A DNA stretch of 64,000 nt from Streptomyces griseochromogenes. GTDB lineage: Bacteria; Actinomycetota; Actinomycetes; Streptomycetales; Streptomycetaceae. Numbering within the stretch: position 1 is the stretch's first letter; each line of letters opens with the position of its first letter. The notes beneath the pieces are model-generated. The model saw only the letters and a program-made list of their open reading frames with translations, ran no database searches and had not been told where the DNA came from. This document shows, piece by piece, positions 32,017 through 38,630 of this stretch. The stretch is from the NCBI RefSeq assembly GCF_001542625.1, contig NZ_CP016279.1, forward strand, positions 5,022,001 to 5,086,000, read 5' to 3'. Position numbers and translations under genes: made by a program.

Positions 32017-32424
32017 GTGACTGAACCCCTGGCCAACAGGCTTGGTTCCTACCCGTCCCGAGCGGCGCCGCCCTACGGACAGGGCTCCTCCGCCAATCTC
32101 GCCGACATTCTTGAACGAGTACTCGACAAGGGCATCGTCATCGCGGGCGACATACAGATCAACCTTCTCGACATCGAGCTGTTGACCATAAAACTGCGCC
32201 TCCTGGTCGCCTCCGTCGACAAAGCGAAGGAAATGGGTATCGACTGGTGGGAGCACGATCCCGCGCTCTCCTCCCGGGCCAGCGGTGAACGGTCACTGGC
32301 CGAGGAGAACCGCCGGTTGCGGGCCGAGATCGATACTCTCCGCCAGGGCAACGCCCTCCCCGTGGAGGAGGAAGCGCCCCGGGTCACGGGCGGCCGTCGC
32401 CGGGGAAGTGCTCGCGATGAGTGA
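32017..32424 (+). CDS. gvpJ: Gas vesicle protein GvpJ (GvpA-like)
   Basis: A 135-residue protein from GTG 32017. A GvpA-like domain (SANLADILERVLDKGIVIAGDIQINLLDIELLTIKLRLLVASVDKAKEMGIDWWEHDP) is followed by a charged coiled-coil-like C-terminus (SLAEENRRLRAEIDTLRQG) and a basic end. GvpJ is a minor shell protein, probably at cone tips. It overlaps gvpL by 8 bases. Confidence 0.93.
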   Translation: MTEPLANRLGSYPSRAAPPYGQGSSANLADILERVLDKGIVIAGDIQINLLDIELLTIKLRLLVASVDKAKEMGIDWWEHDPALSSRASGERSLAEENRRLRAEIDTLRQGNALPVEEEAPRVTGGRRRGSARDE

Positions 32425-33241
32425 CCTGCTGACGTACGCGTATGCGGTGGTACGCGCCGCCGGGGGATTGCAGGAGGCGGCCGCTCCGCTCCGGGGCGTC
32501 GCCGACGCCCCGGTCGGCCTCGTCACCGACACCGGCGTCGTTCAGCTGGGGCTCGTGGTGAGTCATGTGCCGGCGCAGGACTTCAGGGAGGACGCTCTCA
32601 AGCGGCATCTCGAGGACCTGGAATGGCTGGAGGCGGTGGCCCGAGCCCACCACGGCGTCATCGAGGCCCTGGCCGAGCGCACCACCGTCCTTCCTCTGCG
32701 CCTGGCGACCGTCTACCTCGACGACCAGCGGGCCCGGGAGGTCCTGTCAGCCGGGCGGACCGTGTTCGCCGAGCGCCTGGCCCGGCTCTCCGAACATGTC
32801 GAATGGGGGGTCAAGATCTATGTCGAGCCGTCCGAGGTCCCCGCGGCCCCGGCCGTTCCGGCTGCGGACCTGACCCCCGGGCGCGCCTATCTGCGGAACC
32901 GCCGGCAGCAGCAAAGTGTTCGCGACACCGTCTACCAGGCTGCGCAGAAGGCCGCCGAGCGGGTGGAGACCGCGGGCCGCAAGCACGCGGCCGACCGGGT
33001 CCGGCACCGAGTACAGCAGGGTTTTCTCGCCGAAGCGGCCGGCAGCGCCGCCGGCGAGAACGTGGTCAATGACGCCTACCTTGTGCCCCTGAATCGTTGC
33101 GACGACTTCCTGGCCGACGTGACGCGCGCCGCCGACGGGCTGGACGGGGTACGGGTCGAGGCCACCGGCCCCTGGGCTCCGTACTCCTTCGCCATGCCAC
33201 CCGGTGAATCCGGCGGTACCGCGGAGGGAGCGCCCCCGTGA
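32417..33241 (+). CDS. gvpL: Gas vesicle protein GvpL (GvpL/F family)
   Basis: A 274-residue protein with MSDLLTYAYAVVRA, then the conserved VARAHHGVIEALAERTTVLPLRLATVYLDDQRAREVLS, and the C-terminal VVNDAYLVPLNRCDDFLADV...APYSF. It is a second GvpF/L protein distinct from that at 31011. ATG 32417 was chosen because GGGGAAG lies upstream and it overlaps the gvpJ stop. A GTG at 32408 would add three residues. It overlaps gvpS by 4 bases at its end. Confidence 0.93.
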   Translation: MSDLLTYAYAVVRAAGGLQEAAAPLRGVADAPVGLVTDTGVVQLGLVVSHVPAQDFREDALKRHLEDLEWLEAVARAHHGVIEALAERTTVLPLRLATVYLDDQRAREVLSAGRTVFAERLARLSEHVEWGVKIYVEPSEVPAAPAVPAADLTPGRAYLRNRRQQQSVRDTVYQAAQKAAERVETAGRKHAADRVRHRVQQGFLAEAAGSAAGENVVNDAYLVPLNRCDDFLADVTRAADGLDGVRVEATGPWAPYSFAMPPGESGGTAEGAPP

Positions 33242-33477
33242 TCACGCCTGGCCCGCCACCGGAAGCGGAGCGCCTGCCCCAGCGGCAGGTCGCTCTCATC
33301 GATCTGCTGGACCGGCTGCTGACCGGTGGGGTCGTCCTCACCGGTGACGTCGTGCTGTCCATCGCGGACATCGATCTGGTACGCGTCTCGCTGCGTGCCC
33401 TGATCGTTTCCATCAGCGAGCAGAACCCCTCGCCATGGACGAGCACCAGCCCGCTGCGCGGCGACCATGACAGCTGA
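33238..33477 (+). CDS. gvpS: Gas vesicle protein GvpS (GvpA-like)
   Basis: A 79-residue protein from GTG 33238, with QRQVALIDLLDRLLTGGVVLTGDVVLSIADIDLVRVSLRALIVSISE. It is a short GvpA-family unit (hydrophobic beta-hairpin and helices) with no long tail. Stop and start overlap gvpL and gvpK, so translation is coupled. Confidence 0.92.
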   Translation: MITPGPPPEAERLPQRQVALIDLLDRLLTGGVVLTGDVVLSIADIDLVRVSLRALIVSISEQNPSPWTSTSPLRGDHDS

Positions 33478-33877
33478 GGGCGGGAGCCGGCCGCCGTGCC
33501 GCGCCGACGAAGTTGCGGAGGCCGCCGCACGCGCCTTCCGGCTGCTGCCCGCAGCCCCACGCGACCTGGACCCGCCGGCCGGAAAAGGCCCACGTTCCCC
33601 GGCTCGGCGGATCAGCTCCGACCGCGACACCGTCGAACGGGACCTCCTCAAGCTCGTCCTCACCCTCGTGGAACTGCTGCGCCAACTCATGGAACGACAG
33701 GCCCTGCACCGCGTCGACCAAGGAGACCTGACCGACGAACAGGAAGAACGCCTGGGCGCGACACTCATGCTCCTCCACGACCGCATGAGCGACTTGTGCG
33801 CCCAGTACGGACTGACCATGGAGGACCTCAACCTGGACCTCGGGCCGCTGGGCACACTGCTTCCGCCCTCCGACTGA
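33467..33877 (+). CDS. gvpK: Gas vesicle protein GvpK
   Basis: A 136-residue protein with ISSDRDTVERDLLKLVLTLVELLRQLMERQALHRVDQGDLTDEQEERLGATLMLLHDRMSDLCAQYGLTMEDLNLDLGPLGTLLP, the full GvpK pattern. It is last in the gvp operon. Its C-terminal 40 residues recur as a fragment at 23919-24071. The downstream 180 bases have no gene. Confidence 0.94.
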   Translation: MTAEGGSRPPCRADEVAEAAARAFRLLPAAPRDLDPPAGKGPRSPARRISSDRDTVERDLLKLVLTLVELLRQLMERQALHRVDQGDLTDEQEERLGATLMLLHDRMSDLCAQYGLTMEDLNLDLGPLGTLLPPSD

Positions 33878-34061: not shown

Positions 34062-34217
34062 TCACCAGTAGTGGCGTCGACCGGCGACAGCGTGTCCCAT
34101 CGAGCCGAGGATCCACAGGACGGCGCCGACGACCAGCAGGATGATCCCGATGGTCCACAGGATGGATATCCCGGTGAGGAAGCCGACGACGAGCAGAATG
34201 ATGCCTAGGACGATCAT
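34062..34217 (-). CDS. Small hydrophobic membrane protein (DUF6131-like)
   Basis: A 51-residue protein from ATG 34217, with GGGGAGA upstream. Two predicted transmembrane helices: MIVLGIILLVVGFLTG and WTIGIILLVVGAVLWILG, then GHAVAGRRHYW. Such short proteins are common in actinobacterial stress operons and carry no known activity. It appears to be the last gene of the minus-strand Asp23/AmaP operon; the preceding stop (34306) is 88 bp away. Confidence 0.8.
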   Translation of the reverse strand: MIVLGIILLVVGFLTGISILWTIGIILLVVGAVLWILGSMGHAVAGRRHYW

Positions 34218-34305
34218 GATGTCTCCCCTGGGGAGTGGTGTCGGTGCCCCTGTGAACTGCGAGAGAGCGCAAGGGCGGTGGACACGGGGATGGTCGGTCT
34301 CCTTC

Positions 34306-34914
34306 TTACTCCGCGCGGTGCGGTTTGTGGCCGGCGACCTGCAGGCGGACCTCGGTGGGCATGCCAGGGGTGCCGGTGGACCGACGGGCGGTTCGGAGCG
34401 GGCCCTCGCACAGGACATCGAAGACGGTGCCGGGGGACGCCTGAGGGGTGAGAATGAGTGCGACGCGGGTGCGGGGGTGGGCAGGGCGTCCGGTGATGCG
34501 TACGGCCGCGTGCTCGACCGCCGGCAGGGCGCCGGCTTCGGTCGCGATCGCGTCGCTGAGCGCGCTGTCGCGCAGCTCGACGCCCTCCTGCGGGGGTGTG
34601 CCACCGACGGGCAGTGCTCCTGGGTGGCGTCGGCGAAGTTGGGCGAGCAGCCACCACAGGGCGAGCAGGGCGACGAGGACGAGGCCGGCGATGACCGCGG
34701 GCCACCACCACCAGCCCTGGCTGCTCCAGCGGGCTCGGTCGGCGGAGCCGAGCAGGACGTCGTCCGGGGTGGTCAGGGGCCAGCCGGTGGGCGGGACCAG
34801 ATCGTGTCGCCGGTAGATGTCGAGCCCGGCGAAGAGGACCAGCAGACCGCCGCCGAGCAGTACCAGTCCGGCGAGGGCCAGAAGACTGCGGTTGAGTACG
34901 GGTCGCGGCGTCAT
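34306..34914 (-). CDS. amaP: Alkaline shock response membrane anchor protein AmaP
   Basis: A 202-residue protein. Two predicted membrane helices (LLALAGLVLLGGGLLVLFAG and WWWPAVIAGLVLVALLALWWLL) flank a short loop, and a cytosolic C-terminal domain (ELRDSALSDAIATEAGALPAVEHAAVRITGRPAHPRTRVALILT) follows. In Staphylococcus, AmaP anchors Asp23 to the membrane. The gene order Asp23, DUF2273, Asp23, DUF6286, AmaP is the standard Streptomyces version. ATG 34914 is preceded by GGAGCACGCACC. Confidence 0.88.
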   Translation of the reverse strand: MTPRPVLNRSLLALAGLVLLGGGLLVLFAGLDIYRRHDLVPPTGWPLTTPDDVLLGSADRARWSSQGWWWWPAVIAGLVLVALLALWWLLAQLRRRHPGALPVGGTPPQEGVELRDSALSDAIATEAGALPAVEHAAVRITGRPAHPRTRVALILTPQASPGTVFDVLCEGPLRTARRSTGTPGMPTEVRLQVAGHKPHRAE

Positions 34915-34944: not shown

Positions 34945-35625
34945 TCAGTGGGTGCGTTGCCGCACTCGTACGACGATGCGGGGAGGGCGGACGAGGGCGA
35001 GCTGGTCGCGCTCGTGGTCAAGGGCGGCGGTGAGGTCGTCCTTCACCTGGTGGGGGTCGCGGAAGCGGACGTCCGCGCGGGCTTTCACGCGGTGGCGGCG
35101 CACCCGGACGCGGGCCTTACTGACCCCGGGTACCCGCATGGCGGCGTCGCGCAGCACATCGGCGGCGCCGTCTCGGTCCAGGCAGGCCCGCAGCCCGGGC
35201 GCGGGGGAGCGCAGGGGCAGCCAGTGGCGTAGGCCGGGAGTGAGTGCCAGCACGAGCAACCAGATGCCGACGGCGGCGGCCACGGAGGCTCCCGTGAGCA
35301 TCCAGATGTCGTCCACGGGGCGGGTGGCCAGTTCGTCGGCCAGGTGCCTGCGCCAGGCTGCCGCAGGGCGTCCCGCCCGTACGGCGACGACGTCGATCAG
35401 CGCCGCGCCCGCCGCCACGAGAACCACCGAGGCGACCAGTGCGGCCGGAATGCGGCGCGCGGACCACGGTCGGTGCGCCCGGTGTCGTCTGTCGTCTTCA
35501 CCGGCCTTGAGGTTCGAGCTGGACACCTTGCGTTCGGTTGGATCGGGCTCCTTCGCCGGCGGCACTGTGGCACGGTGCGCGGACGGCGCGGAGCTGGGGC
35601 CGGGATGACCGGAATCGGGTGTCAT
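34945..35625 (-). CDS. DUF6286 membrane protein
   Basis: A 226-residue protein. The N-terminal 50 residues are hydrophilic and disordered. Two hydrophobic helices follow (IPAALVASVVLVAAGAALIDVVA and MLTGASVAAAVGIWLLVLALTPG). A C-terminal domain contains VPGVSKARVRVRRHRVKARADVRFRDPHQVKDDLTAAL, a beta-rich fold like that in AmaP. It is always found between Asp23 and AmaP in Streptomyces. Function unknown, probably part of the same envelope complex. Confidence 0.85.
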   Translation of the reverse strand: MTPDSGHPGPSSAPSAHRATVPPAKEPDPTERKVSSSNLKAGEDDRRHRAHRPWSARRIPAALVASVVLVAAGAALIDVVAVRAGRPAAAWRRHLADELATRPVDDIWMLTGASVAAAVGIWLLVLALTPGLRHWLPLRSPAPGLRACLDRDGAADVLRDAAMRVPGVSKARVRVRRHRVKARADVRFRDPHQVKDDLTAALDHERDQLALVRPPRIVVRVRQRTH

Positions 35626-35677: not shown

Positions 35678-36085
35678 TCACCGGACCCGCCCCCGGCTCG
35701 CGTCGGCGGCGGTCACCAGCCGCCGGACGGTGAGGAGGACCTCTCCCACCCTCAGGCCGGTCAGCTGAGCCACCCGTTCGGCGACGTCGCGCTGGATCCG
35801 CTCGCAGACCTGGGGGATGTCGGTGGGGTAGGGCAGGTCCATGGTCAGGTGCAGGCGCACCGATCCGGTACGGACGGCCGCAGAGGCGTGGGGTGCCGTT
35901 GGCCCGTCCCGGTCGGGCGGTAGGGCGGCGCGCCGGGACTGGGCCGTGCGCGCGGCCCGGGCGGCGATGCGGGCGACCACCCTGTCCGGGATGACGGTGG
36001 CGCCCCGCTCGGCCGGGGGCGGCAGGCCGACGGCCGGTGCCGGCGGGCTCGCCCCGTCGTCGGGGGAGCCGGGCCGGGTGTTCAT
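35678..36085 (-). CDS. Asp23/Gls24-family envelope stress protein
   Basis: A 135-residue protein with the Asp23 fold: a short beta strand ATVIPDRVVARIAARAA, then VRLHLTMDLPYPTDIPQVCERIQRDVAERVAQLTGLRVGEVLLTVRRLV. The N-terminus is Pro-rich. ATG 36085 overlaps the TGA of the preceding DUF2273 gene (ATGA), so it is translationally coupled. Asp23 proteins bind the AmaP membrane anchor and support envelope stress tolerance. Confidence 0.88.
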   Translation of the reverse strand: MNTRPGSPDDGASPPAPAVGLPPPAERGATVIPDRVVARIAARAARTAQSRRAALPPDRDGPTAPHASAAVRTGSVRLHLTMDLPYPTDIPQVCERIQRDVAERVAQLTGLRVGEVLLTVRRLVTAADASRGRVR

Positions 36086-36252
36086 CGCTGTCTCCGCGCA
36101 TGGAGGTCGAGGTCGCCCTGCACGACAAGGCCGACGATCAGCCCCACCGTGCCCAGGACGAGAACGAGCAGGAATGCCCAGAAGCCGCCGAAGTAAGCGG
36201 CGAAACCCAGGGCCATGCCGGCCGCGAGGCCCGTTGTCGCTGTGTTCATCAT
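36082..36252 (-). CDS. DUF2273-family small membrane protein
   Basis: A 56-residue protein (MMNTATTGLAAGMALGFAAYFGG...LVLVLGTVGLIVG) with two hydrophobic helices and a basic end. It overlaps the Asp23 start by 4 bases. DUF2273 proteins regularly lie between Asp23 paralogues. It is short, so easy to miss; the start is ATG 36252 or the next codon. Confidence 0.85.
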   Translation of the reverse strand: MMNTATTGLAAGMALGFAAYFGGFWAFLLVLVLGTVGLIVGLVVQGDLDLHARRQR

Positions 36253-36335: not shown

Positions 36336-36827
36336 TCACCTCACGCGGCCCTCCTCCGGTTCGTTCTGCTCCTCCTCGTCGTCGGGCAGGTGGACGTCGT
36401 CGACGGCGATGTTCACCTCGACGACCTCCAGTCCCGTCATCCGCTCAACGGCGTTGATGACATTGGTGCGTACGCCGCCGGCGACATCGACGATGGAGAC
36501 GCCGTACTCGACGACGACGTCGAGGTCCACGGCGGCCTGCCGCTCGCCGACCTCGACCTTCACCCCCCGCGTGACGGCCCCTCCTCCGCCTGCGCCGGGG
36601 ACGCGTTCCCGCATGGCGCCGAAGGCGCGGGCCATCCCTGCTCCCAGGTTGTAGATGCCCGGTACCTCACGGGCAGCCATGCCCGCGATCTTGGCCACCA
36701 CCCCGTCCGCGATGGTGGTCTTCCCCCGAGTCTCGGCCGGAGCCCCGGCCCCGGTACGGCCCTTCAACGCGCTCACGCCCGCCTCGGGCCGACTGCCCCC
36801 GCCGACGCTGGTGATGTTGTCCGTCAT
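36336..36827 (-). CDS. Asp23/Gls24-family envelope stress protein
   Basis: A 163-residue protein. The core (KTTIADGVVAKIAGMAAREVPGIYNLGAGMARAFGAMR, then VKVEVGERQAAVDLDVVVEYGVSIVDVAGGVRTNVINAVERMTGLEVVEVNIAVDDVHLP) is the canonical Asp23/Gls24 domain, followed by an acidic end. ATG 36827 was chosen (GAGG upstream); another ATG 69 bp upstream is possible. It is first in the operon of Asp23 and AmaP genes and is divergent from the ECF sigma factor gene. Confidence 0.9.
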   Translation of the reverse strand: MTDNITSVGGGSRPEAGVSALKGRTGAGAPAETRGKTTIADGVVAKIAGMAAREVPGIYNLGAGMARAFGAMRERVPGAGGGGAVTRGVKVEVGERQAAVDLDVVVEYGVSIVDVAGGVRTNVINAVERMTGLEVVEVNIAVDDVHLPDDEEEQNEPEEGRVR

Positions 36828-36918
36828 GGCGTTCGCCTCGGTCGGTCGGTCAGGCACCGGTGCGGCACCCGTCAAAATGTTGGACATATCGGGCGGCGCG
36901 TTTCTCACGCGCATCGAA

Positions 36919-36934
36919 TGTGATGTGCATCACA
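36919..36934. promoter_or_regulatory. Crp-type palindrome TGTGA-N6-TCACA
   Basis: TGTGATGTGCATCACA matches the E. coli CRP and Streptomyces Crp half-sites exactly (TGTGA, six bases, TCACA). It is centred 56 bp before the sigma factor start codon and about 100 bp before the Asp23 start, in the intergenic region shared by both. That a Crp/Fnr-type protein binds here is inference. Confidence 0.6.
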
Positions 36935-36982
36935 GATTGCCTGTCGGGTACCCGGACGGTCCGAGCCTTGCGCGGGAGCGCC

Positions 36983-37603
36983 ATGATCAAACGCACTGCT
37001 TTCCCACCGCCGGAACGCGATCTGCCGGAACGCGATCTGCCGGAACGCGATCTGCCGGAACGCGACGTGCCGGACCGGCTGCTGGCCGTACGGGCGGCCG
37101 AGGGTGACGAGGACTCCTTCGCCGTTCTCGTCCGACGGCACGGCCGGCCGCTCCTTGCCTTGGCTCGCTGCATGCTTGGCAACCCCCAGGATGCCGAGGA
37201 GGCCGTTCAGGACGCCTTCGTCAGCGCCTGGCGCCGGTTGCCGGAATACCGCCACAGCGCGGAGTTCCGTACCTGGATGTACCGCATCACCGTCAACCGC
37301 TGTCTGACCATTCGTCGGCGCCGGCCGCCGCCCCTCTCCCTGAACAGGGTCGTCGAACCCGCGACGGGAGACGCCTGGAGCCAGCCCGCCCGGTCCGCAG
37401 AGCAGGACGCGGCCATCGCCGCCCTGTCCCGCGCGCTCGCCGAACTGGACGACGGGCAGCGGATCTGCTGGATCCTGAGAGAAGTTCAGGGCCTGCCTTA
37501 CAAAGACATAGCCCACGTGACACGCACCAGCGAACAGACAGTGCGCGGCAGACTGTTCAGGGCACGCCGATCCCTGCAGGAGGCGATGGGCCCATGGCGC
37601 TAG
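36983..37603 (+). CDS. ECF-family RNA polymerase sigma factor
   Basis: A 206-residue protein. Region 2: LLAVRAAEGDEDSFAVLVRRHGRPLLALARCMLGNPQDAEEAVQDAFVSAWRRLPEYRHSAEFRTWMYRITVNRCL. Region 4: LSRALAELDDGQRICWILREVQGLPYKDIAHVTRTSEQTVRGRLFRARRSL. ATG 36983 has GGGAG upstream. The N-terminus contains a 15-bp tandem repeat (37011-37070, four units of ERDLP-type). It is divergent from the Asp23/AmaP operon and its stop overlaps a zinc-motif Asp23 protein gene, so it probably controls these envelope genes with that protein as antagonist (inference). Confidence 0.93.
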   Translation: MIKRTAFPPPERDLPERDLPERDLPERDVPDRLLAVRAAEGDEDSFAVLVRRHGRPLLALARCMLGNPQDAEEAVQDAFVSAWRRLPEYRHSAEFRTWMYRITVNRCLTIRRRRPPPLSLNRVVEPATGDAWSQPARSAEQDAAIAALSRALAELDDGQRICWILREVQGLPYKDIAHVTRTSEQTVRGRLFRARRSLQEAMGPWR

Positions 37604-38265
37604 ACGACCCGCACACACGGCCTCCCGAACCGCCCGGAGCCGACGGGCCCCGACCCGGCCCGGCCGCCGCCGACGTGCCCCCGTTCGCGGGCGATGAGGC
37701 ACTGCCCTGTGGCCGCCTCCTCAGCCGGGTCTGGGAACAGGCGCAGGACGCGGCACCGGCCACGGACCCGCACACGGTGTCCTGTCCTCACTGCCGTGAG
37801 GCCGTCGAGGGACTGGCCACGGTCAACGCCGCCACGCGGGTGCTGCGCGCCGAGGACCCTCCCGGCCTGCACGCAGTCGCCGGCCGCGTCATGGAGGTCG
37901 TCAGGGCCGAGGTCCGGCTTGGGCGGCTGCTGCCCCTGGCCGACCCGGACCGGGACCTGCGCATCGCCGAGAGCACGGCGGCGAAGGTACTGAGGCAGGC
38001 CGCGGACACCGTCCCCGGCGCGAGCGCGGCGACCTGCCGGCTCGTGCCCGAGGGCGACGGCACCGACGTGCGGGTGACCATGACCCTGGCCGCCGCCCTC
38101 GACCGCCCGCTGCCCGACCGGGCCCATCAGGTACGCATAGCAGTCTTCCACTCGGCCGGACAGGACCTGGGGCTCGCCGTGACGGCCGTCGACATCACCG
38201 TGGTCGGCGCACTGGAGCCGTGGCCGCCCCTGACTGTCGGCCACCCCACGGGTGGTGTCACGTGA
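37594..38265 (+). CDS. Asp23-like protein with N-terminal HxxxCxxC (zinc anti-sigma-like) motif
   Basis: A 223-residue protein starting 10 bases before the sigma factor stop (ATG 37594), so strongly coupled. Residues 39-70 contain LPCGRLLSRVWEQAQDAAPATD and then HTVSCPHC, i.e. His60-x3-Cys64-x2-Cys67, the pattern of zinc-binding anti-sigma (ZAS) domains. From about residue 90 it resembles Asp23/Gls24 (VMEVVRAEVRLGR, then a long beta strand VRVTMTLAAALDRPLPDRAHQVRIAVFHSAGQ). Both annotations exist for relatives. The role as anti-sigma factor of the upstream sigma gene is inference from coupling and motif. Confidence 0.85.
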   Translation: MALDDPHTRPPEPPGADGPRPGPAAADVPPFAGDEALPCGRLLSRVWEQAQDAAPATDPHTVSCPHCREAVEGLATVNAATRVLRAEDPPGLHAVAGRVMEVVRAEVRLGRLLPLADPDRDLRIAESTAAKVLRQAADTVPGASAATCRLVPEGDGTDVRVTMTLAAALDRPLPDRAHQVRIAVFHSAGQDLGLAVTAVDITVVGALEPWPPLTVGHPTGGVT

Positions 38266-38630
38266 TGACCGCCACCGGCACGACCGCGCTCCTCGGCGTC
38301 GCGGCCGATGCAGCCCTCGCGGTTCCCGGCGTGGCCGGCCTGCAACCCCGCCTCGCCCACCGTCTCGCGGCAGCCGCCACCACCCGGGCCGACCCCATGC
38401 CTCACCGCACGTCGCCCGAGGCGGGCATCCGCGCCGACCGGGCGCCGGACGGTTCCGGATGGCACATCGAGGTGCGCTGCGTCCTGACCGAGGGCCGACG
38501 GGCACTGGACATCGCCCGCGACGTCCACGACCGGGTGCGCACCGCCGTCATCTCCCACCTCTCCGCCCCGGAGCCGGTCACCGTTACGGTCACGGTGACC
38601 CGTATCGCCGCCCGGTACGACGCGGCATGA
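38262..38630 (+). CDS. Small Asp23-like protein
   Basis: A product of about 121-122 residues starting at GTG 38262 or ATG 38265; both overlap the previous stop. It contains ALLGVAADAALAVPGVAGLQPRLAHRLAAAATTRA and the strand SGWHIEVRCVLTEGRRALDIARDVHDRVRTAVISHLSA, the Asp23-type arrangement. It is the third gene of the sigma factor operon. Function unknown, probably in the same envelope-stress complex. Confidence 0.75.
   Translation: MMTATGTTALLGVAADAALAVPGVAGLQPRLAHRLAAAATTRADPMPHRTSPEAGIRADRAPDGSGWHIEVRCVLTEGRRALDIARDVHDRVRTAVISHLSAPEPVTVTVTVTRIAARYDAA

Follow-up and report, generated by a model that had tools for sequence, protein, structure and literature searches.

Gene organization of the locus

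The locus described here lies within a 64-kb window (the whole 64,000-nucleotide stretch of Streptomyces griseochromogenes DNA that was analyzed) and comprises three consecutive forward-strand genes opposite an Asp23 operon that runs on the reverse strand. The first gene, an open reading frame (ORF) from the ATG at 36983 to the stop codon at 37601-37603 (36983..37603, + strand), encodes an ECF-type sigma-70 family sigma factor of 206 aa with Pfam matches to Sigma70_r2 (5.2e-18) and Sigma70_r4_2 (1.8e-12), and its relatives in the PDB are sigma factors such as SigH, RpoE, and SigW. The second gene (37594..38265, + strand) encodes a predicted anti-sigma factor of 223 aa, hereafter the 37594 protein, in which an N-terminal CHCC module is followed by an Asp23-like domain. 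The third gene (38265..38630, + strand), whose start overlaps the stop codon of the second as TGATG, encodes a small protein of 121 aa that is weakly Asp23-like (Pfam Asp23, E = 8e-4; 20.3 bits versus a cut-off of 28).

The arrangement of the first two genes is as the first-pass annotation had placed it, with the ATG of the 37594 gene sitting 10 bases before the end of the sigma stop codon. This overlap measures 10 bases in 59 of 96 loci surveyed and 4 bases in 35, with no start found in the other two. An overlapping, sigma-first gene order is usual for anti-sigma pairs. Within the sigma gene itself, four near-perfect 15-base repeats (37010-37069) give the sigma N-terminus a run of PERDL-type repeats, which are absent or mostly absent in the aligned sigma orthologues.

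The same annotation had described a complete divergent Asp23/DUF2273/AmaP operon, and such an operon is indeed present, although its DUF2273 and AmaP members score below the curated cut-offs. Reading away from the sigma gene on the reverse strand, it consists of asp23 (36336..36827; Pfam Asp23, 102.9 bits), a gene for a DUF2273-like small membrane protein (36082..36249; Pfam, 19.4 bits against a cut-off of 25.4, E = 0.0011), a second Asp23-family gene (35678..36085; Pfam Asp23, 34.1 bits), a DUF6286 gene (34945..35625; Pfam, 108.7 bits), and a gene for an AmaP-like membrane anchor (34306..34914; NCBIfam AmaP, 46.5 bits against a cut-off of 55, E = 3e-12). The asp23 start at 36827 is probable: it is conserved in the upstream alignment, and a longer ORF from 36914 would engulf the promoter described below. 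All 65 of the sigma-holding loci longer than 9 kb carry an Asp23 relative on the opposite strand, and all carry a DUF2273 relative as well; the same 65 loci hold the DUF6286 gene in 61 cases, the AmaP-like gene in 60, the second Asp23 gene in 57, and the third gene in 49.

Beyond the AmaP-like gene lies a gene for a small DUF6131 membrane protein (34062-34220), and a set of gas vesicle genes (32017-33877; two of GvpA/J type, GvpL/F, and GvpK) adjoins the Asp23 operon. A functional link to gas vesicles was ruled out, the genes of that cluster being matched in 2 to 4 of 65 related loci.

A complete set of putative zinc ligands in the 37594 protein

The first-pass annotation had pointed to His60-x3-Cys64-x2-Cys67 in the 37594 protein, and these residues are in place (codons 37771..37794, + strand). 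They are, however, three of four ligands: the fourth, Cys39 (LPCGRLLSRVWE; codon 37708..37710, + strand), had been overlooked and is the counterpart of RsrA Cys11 in a profile alignment. Together, the four residues belong to a zinc anti-sigma-like module that spans about residues 35-109.

Across 70 aligned homologues, Cys39 is conserved in 69, His60 in 65, Cys64 in 69, and Cys67 in all 70. This set was thinned at 85% identity, reaches down to 22% identity to the 37594 protein (which stands for its own locus), and represents 70 of 73 retained sequences, three incomplete ones having been left out. The wider set from which it derives drew on 75 loci from GTDB genomes and on a class-wide scan of 394 genomes, 58 of which matched at E <= 0.001, many of them through the Asp23-like part only. 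A protein search returned 364 homologues, the closest named ones from Streptomyces, and in the 54 sequences aligned from the best 120 of these 364, Cys39, Cys64, and Cys67 are invariant, and at least 90% retain His60. A chance motif can be ruled out because ligand conservation extends to homologues as distant as about 22-30% identity. The five exceptions at His60 (loci L022, L095, L096, L101, and L106) all retain the sigma factor, and in L106 two of the cysteines are gone as well. Four of them, L095, L096, L101, and L106, are distant homologues from one family (f36), each with altered zinc ligands beside a retained sigma.

When the N-terminal profile was compared with 28 RsrA sequences, the alignment covered 65 columns and placed each of the four ligands opposite its counterpart (P = 8e-5; probability 61%), against 16 columns and a probability of 18% for a zinc-ribbon control, FmdB. 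These alignments used 28 of 30 RsrA loci and 21 of 25 FmdB loci, six truncated sequences having been dropped. Masking of Cys and His reduced the RsrA probability to 1.6%, and the similarity therefore resides mainly in the ligands.

Family models and structures gave a more diffuse picture. The NCBIfam generic anti-sigma model was the commonest family match, found in 7 of 69 members (best E = 2.5e-4). The whole 37594 protein had one anti-sigma family match, at E = 0.3, and none of the anti-sigma models of Pfam and NCBIfam was matched by its N-terminal piece. Of the 38 Pfam families matched by the 69 members, the 25 listed include no anti-sigma family, the matches being weak ones to zinc ribbons, domains of unknown function, or unrelated families. 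Against the PDB, the N-terminal profile gave 21 matches, which include three anti-sigma factors of solved structure: 3hug_B (E = 0.0017), labeled a probable conserved membrane protein in its entry and which we take to be RslA, RsiW (E = 0.083), and DdvA (E = 0.32). Many of the others are eukaryotic zinc fingers, which are matched by way of their cysteines and in some cases have better E-values. An AlphaFold2 model (mean pLDDT, 82.5; pTM, 0.54) places N-terminal helices at residues 43-51, 59-63, 65-86, and 92-109, and no anti-sigma domain was among the matches listed when the PDB was searched by fold using the N-terminal domain by itself. Given the complete CHCC set, an identity of the 37594 protein as an RsrA-type redox/zinc anti-sigma factor is plausible from its sequence.

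The Asp23-like domain and its linkage to the sigma factor

The Asp23-like domain reported by the first-pass annotation is real but remote. The 37594 protein reaches 12.7 bits against PF03780, below the cut-off of 28, and we therefore call it Asp23-like rather than filing it as Asp23; among eight homologues scanned, the one from L102 alone passes that cut-off, at 35.4 bits. The AlphaFold2 model shows an alpha/beta fold over residues 112-207.

We then counted linkage among 108 ORFs that scored at least 40 bits in the profile search, a set in which some genes are repeated (L002 and L080 hold the same gene, as do L001 and L004, and some class-scan loci resemble repeats of GTDB loci). A sigma gene lies directly upstream in 97 of them, and the HxxxCxxC motif, whose loss from orthologues the first-pass annotation had regarded as fatal to its proposal, is kept in 92 of these 97, leaving five in which a sigma is present but the motif is incomplete. 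In L070, near a contig end, one further ORF carries the motif with no visible sigma. The other ten were scored as having neither, and comprise a truncated copy with no visible sigma (L052), an apparently broken-frame copy beside a sigma (L097), the fusion in L091 described below, and six distinct sigma-less paralogues, one of them present twice. All six paralogues lack HxxxCxxC altogether, their matches starting at profile position 79 or later, past the ligands; the zinc module thus goes with the sigma factor.

A second Asp23 operon of the same genome (L004:7192-9108) is sigma-less and has a divergent Asp23-like gene without the zinc module, one of the six paralogues, the product of which shares 38% identity with the 37594 protein over 129 columns of the Asp23-like part. 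We considered whether this paralogue is a fusion of the second and third genes. Its first half matches as just described, but the second half matches weakly (E = 0.004), and hence we do not claim such a fusion.

A different fusion was found in Thermobifida. In L091 (1501-2478), the sigma sequence continues without a frame break into the Asp23-like domain, forming one ORF with both Sigma70_r2 and Sigma70_r4_2, the product of which is identical to a 326-aa protein of Thermobifida alba annotated as an RNA polymerase sigma factor. A second Thermobifida genome carries a fusion that is 71% identical (L191:1501-2457), so that fusions occur in two of the four genomes of the genus that were scanned, the other two having no fusion match at E 1e-20. 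Four other matches to the fusion query had about half coverage; at 184-227 aa, these sigma factors lack the length of a fusion. Both single-chain proteins lack the CHCC ligands and keep the last helices ahead of the Asp23-like domain. The fusion is evidence that the sigma factor and the Asp23-like domain act jointly, and that zinc can be dispensed with; judged from these sequences, the zinc part of 37594-type proteins is dispensable in places. The Thermobifida fusion also offers a natural single-chain version for structural work.

Conserved regulatory DNA between the sigma gene and asp23

An upstream alignment of 36 close loci revealed an intergenic stretch that is variable except for three conserved elements. 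The first is an ECF-like promoter that faces asp23, GTGAG-N17-TGTCCAA (36880..36908, - strand; -35 at 36904-36908 and -10 at 36880-36886). Among the 39 close loci, many of which are close relatives and not independent, 35 have it, in 28 distinct versions, and a second group has it in 6 of 10 loci. In 10 of 33 loci of a third group it faces the sigma gene instead, mostly in the form GTAAC-N16/17-TGTCCAA, and L084 and L093 have one copy each way, the asp23-facing copy of L093 being found with a relaxed pattern only. These opposite orientations across lineages are a stronger point than the close-locus counts. The AAC at -35 is usual for ECF promoters.

The strict pattern occurs in 53 of 96 upstream windows (set from estimated sigma starts), compared with one match in 1,766,378 strand-bases of background from these loci, and it occurs in 1 of 1,920 simulated windows. 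Three further loci (L045, L087, and L090) have a similar site just outside the upstream window, beside the sigma start, which brings the count to 56 of 96 loci with the element and 40, mostly distant ones, without it. Within the loci surveyed, the element occurs only beside a sigma or asp23 gene; it is absent from all six sigma-less Asp23 loci, and the strict motif is also absent from the Thermobifida fusion loci. This footprint suggests that the sigma factor is tied to the Asp23 operon, as the first-pass annotation had guessed, presumably through recognition of the element by the sigma.

Two other promoter hypotheses were set aside. A simple pattern for the classical GGAAC-type ECF promoter was found, scattered, in 6 of 95 upstream windows. 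A large regulon was likewise rejected: a broad pattern gave 13 matches in the 10.8-Mb genome, compared with 3 for a reversed control, a crude gene check placing some of the matches within long ORFs and others close to potential genes, and a narrower pattern, which misses the asp23 site, gave 5 genome matches versus 10 for the control.

The remaining two elements overlap one another upstream of the sigma gene. One is a CRP-like palindrome, TGTGATGTGCATCACA (36919..36934, on neither strand in particular), which is the sole TGTGA-N6-TCACA match in the 64-kb window, where 0.03 were expected. Its core is found in 36 of 39 close loci and in 3 of 56 upstream windows outside the close group, with no match in 409,453 background bases; genome-wide, allowing up to two mismatches, nine rows were obtained besides the window's two, and none with the control. 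The palindrome is also consistent with GTG-N8-CAC, the motif that PMC10033298 quotes for GlxR. The other element is a SigB-like promoter of the sigma gene, GCAT-N15-GGGTAC (36927..36951, + strand), conserved in 30 of 39 close loci, with about 0.01 matches expected per window. SigB-type promoters are described as having a GNNT -35 and a GGG-type -10 (PMC8346170).

A candidate envelope-scaffold switch and its alternatives

The first-pass annotation had proposed that an Asp23-type protein serves as a redox or zinc anti-sigma factor. In an extended form, we consider this probable: the 37594 protein would be a zinc/redox anti-sigma factor, its Asp23-like half would link it to the Asp23 scaffold, and the sigma factor would drive asp23. 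Specifically, the N-terminal CHCC module is predicted to bind and block the ECF sigma encoded directly upstream, while the C-terminal Asp23-like domain would join the 37594 protein to the divergently encoded Asp23/AmaP-type envelope scaffold. The sigma might then be freed either by oxidation, involving Cys39 with Cys64/67, or by capture of the Asp23-like half on the Asp23/AmaP scaffold. Once free, it would transcribe the asp23 operon from the GTGAG/GTAAC-N16/17-TGTCCAA element, the footprint of which is visible in the upstream alignments. The sigma gene would in turn be fed by a SigB-family sigma factor and a CRP-like regulator, acting at the two candidate sites described above. The redox or zinc part of the original proposal survives in part: the CHCC set fits it, but 5 of 70 homologues have altered ligands and the Thermobifida fusion has lost them, and 'redox or zinc' therefore cannot be the whole mechanism.

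The same two observations bear on a reading in which the anti-sigma is real, zinc is purely structural, and the signal enters not by redox but through the Asp23-like domain, as the state of the Asp23/AmaP scaffold. The five homologues that keep the sigma with altered ligands, and the fusion that retains the sigma and the Asp23-like domain while dropping the ligands, are what this reading would lead one to see. Weighing against it is Cys39, the counterpart of the RsrA redox cysteine (PMC4960319), which is kept in 69 of 70 homologues and is thus no less strict than the CxxC pair. We regard a purely structural zinc as a real though tentative possibility.

In another reading, the Asp23-like domain, not the zinc module, could be the core regulator, sensing whether the Asp23/AmaP scaffold is free or assembled, with the CHCC module acting as a redox veto in most lineages and the Thermobifida protein representing a collapsed single-chain switch. 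Such an arrangement seems to us rather unlikely, but if it were true, the sigma would measure and restore its own target and thereby act as an envelope-scaffold homeostat.

A third alternative departs from anti-sigma function altogether, making the 37594 protein a co-transcribed Asp23-like target or positive partner with a zinc knuckle, and no inhibitor, of a sigma that is controlled only at transcription. The strong candidate transcriptional inputs, namely the SigB-like promoter and the CRP-like site, would suit such control, and no family model confidently names the 37594 protein an anti-sigma factor. We nevertheless judge it improbable, given that the zinc module is found only with the sigma and has an RsrA-like ligand order, that the gene order is overlapping and sigma-first, and that an anti-sigma role has been predicted in print (PMC8999054). 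Equally improbable is recognition of GTGAG-N17-TGTCCAA by another regulator or sigma rather than by this ECF sigma, for although the close-group -35 lacks AAC and the link between sigma and element is one of correlation, the element appears in both orientations across lineages, only beside the sigma or asp23 gene, and not at the six sigma-less Asp23 loci.

Comparison with known systems

Like the Asp23-AmaP system of Staphylococcus aureus, in which the two proteins are encoded in one operon and have an envelope function, the divergent genes described here form a single operon. In S. aureus, Asp23 is a membrane-tethered polymer that AmaP attaches to the membrane, and deletion of either asp23 or amaP strongly induces the cell-wall stress response; the available text of that report describes no sigma partner (PMC6954212). 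The N-terminal half recalls SigR-RsrA of Streptomyces coelicolor. RsrA binds zinc through Cys11, His37, Cys41, and Cys44, of which Cys11 is needed for redox sensing (PMC4960319), and the same Cys...His-x3-Cys-x2-Cys order is present in all 28 RsrA sequences and in the 37594 protein. RsrA, however, is far shorter, at 105 aa, and no Asp23-like domain is described for it in the accessible part of the same source (PMC4960319). The two-part architecture has a parallel in ChrR of Rhodobacter sphaeroides (ECF11), a soluble anti-sigma factor with an N-terminal ZAS domain and a C-terminal sensor, although the C-terminal domain of ChrR is cupin-like, whereas that of the 37594 protein is Asp23-like (PMC8999054).

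The closest precedents are the groups ECF286 and ECF292, for which an Asp23-family anti-sigma factor has been predicted (Casas-Pastor 2021, as reported in PMC8999054), with WP_003983642.1 of Streptomyces rimosus and WP_036395736.1 of Mycolicibacterium cosmeticum given as respective examples (PMC8999054). The idea of an Asp23-type anti-sigma factor is therefore not new. In those groups, the ECF sigma adjoins a soluble Asp23-family protein that is its predicted anti-sigma factor, and an ECF sigma likewise adjoins the 37594 protein here, with the reservation that the latter is only Asp23-like; the account of ECF286 and ECF292 in the text of PMC8999054 available to us mentions no CHCC module, promoter, or Asp23 operon. 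Within the literature searched, mostly outside subscription journals, we found no experimental study of a pair of ECF sigma and Asp23-type anti-sigma; an Asp23-type protein with all four CHCC ligands was not encountered there either, and neither were the Thermobifida fusion, the promoter element, and the two candidate inputs to the sigma gene. With a sigma factor, a predicted anti-sigma factor, and a conserved asp23 promoter, the system presents a testable loop for setting the amount of Asp23 scaffold in actinobacteria, and the promoter element, along with the SigB-like and CRP-like candidate inputs, makes the prediction already published for ECF286 and ECF292 directly testable.
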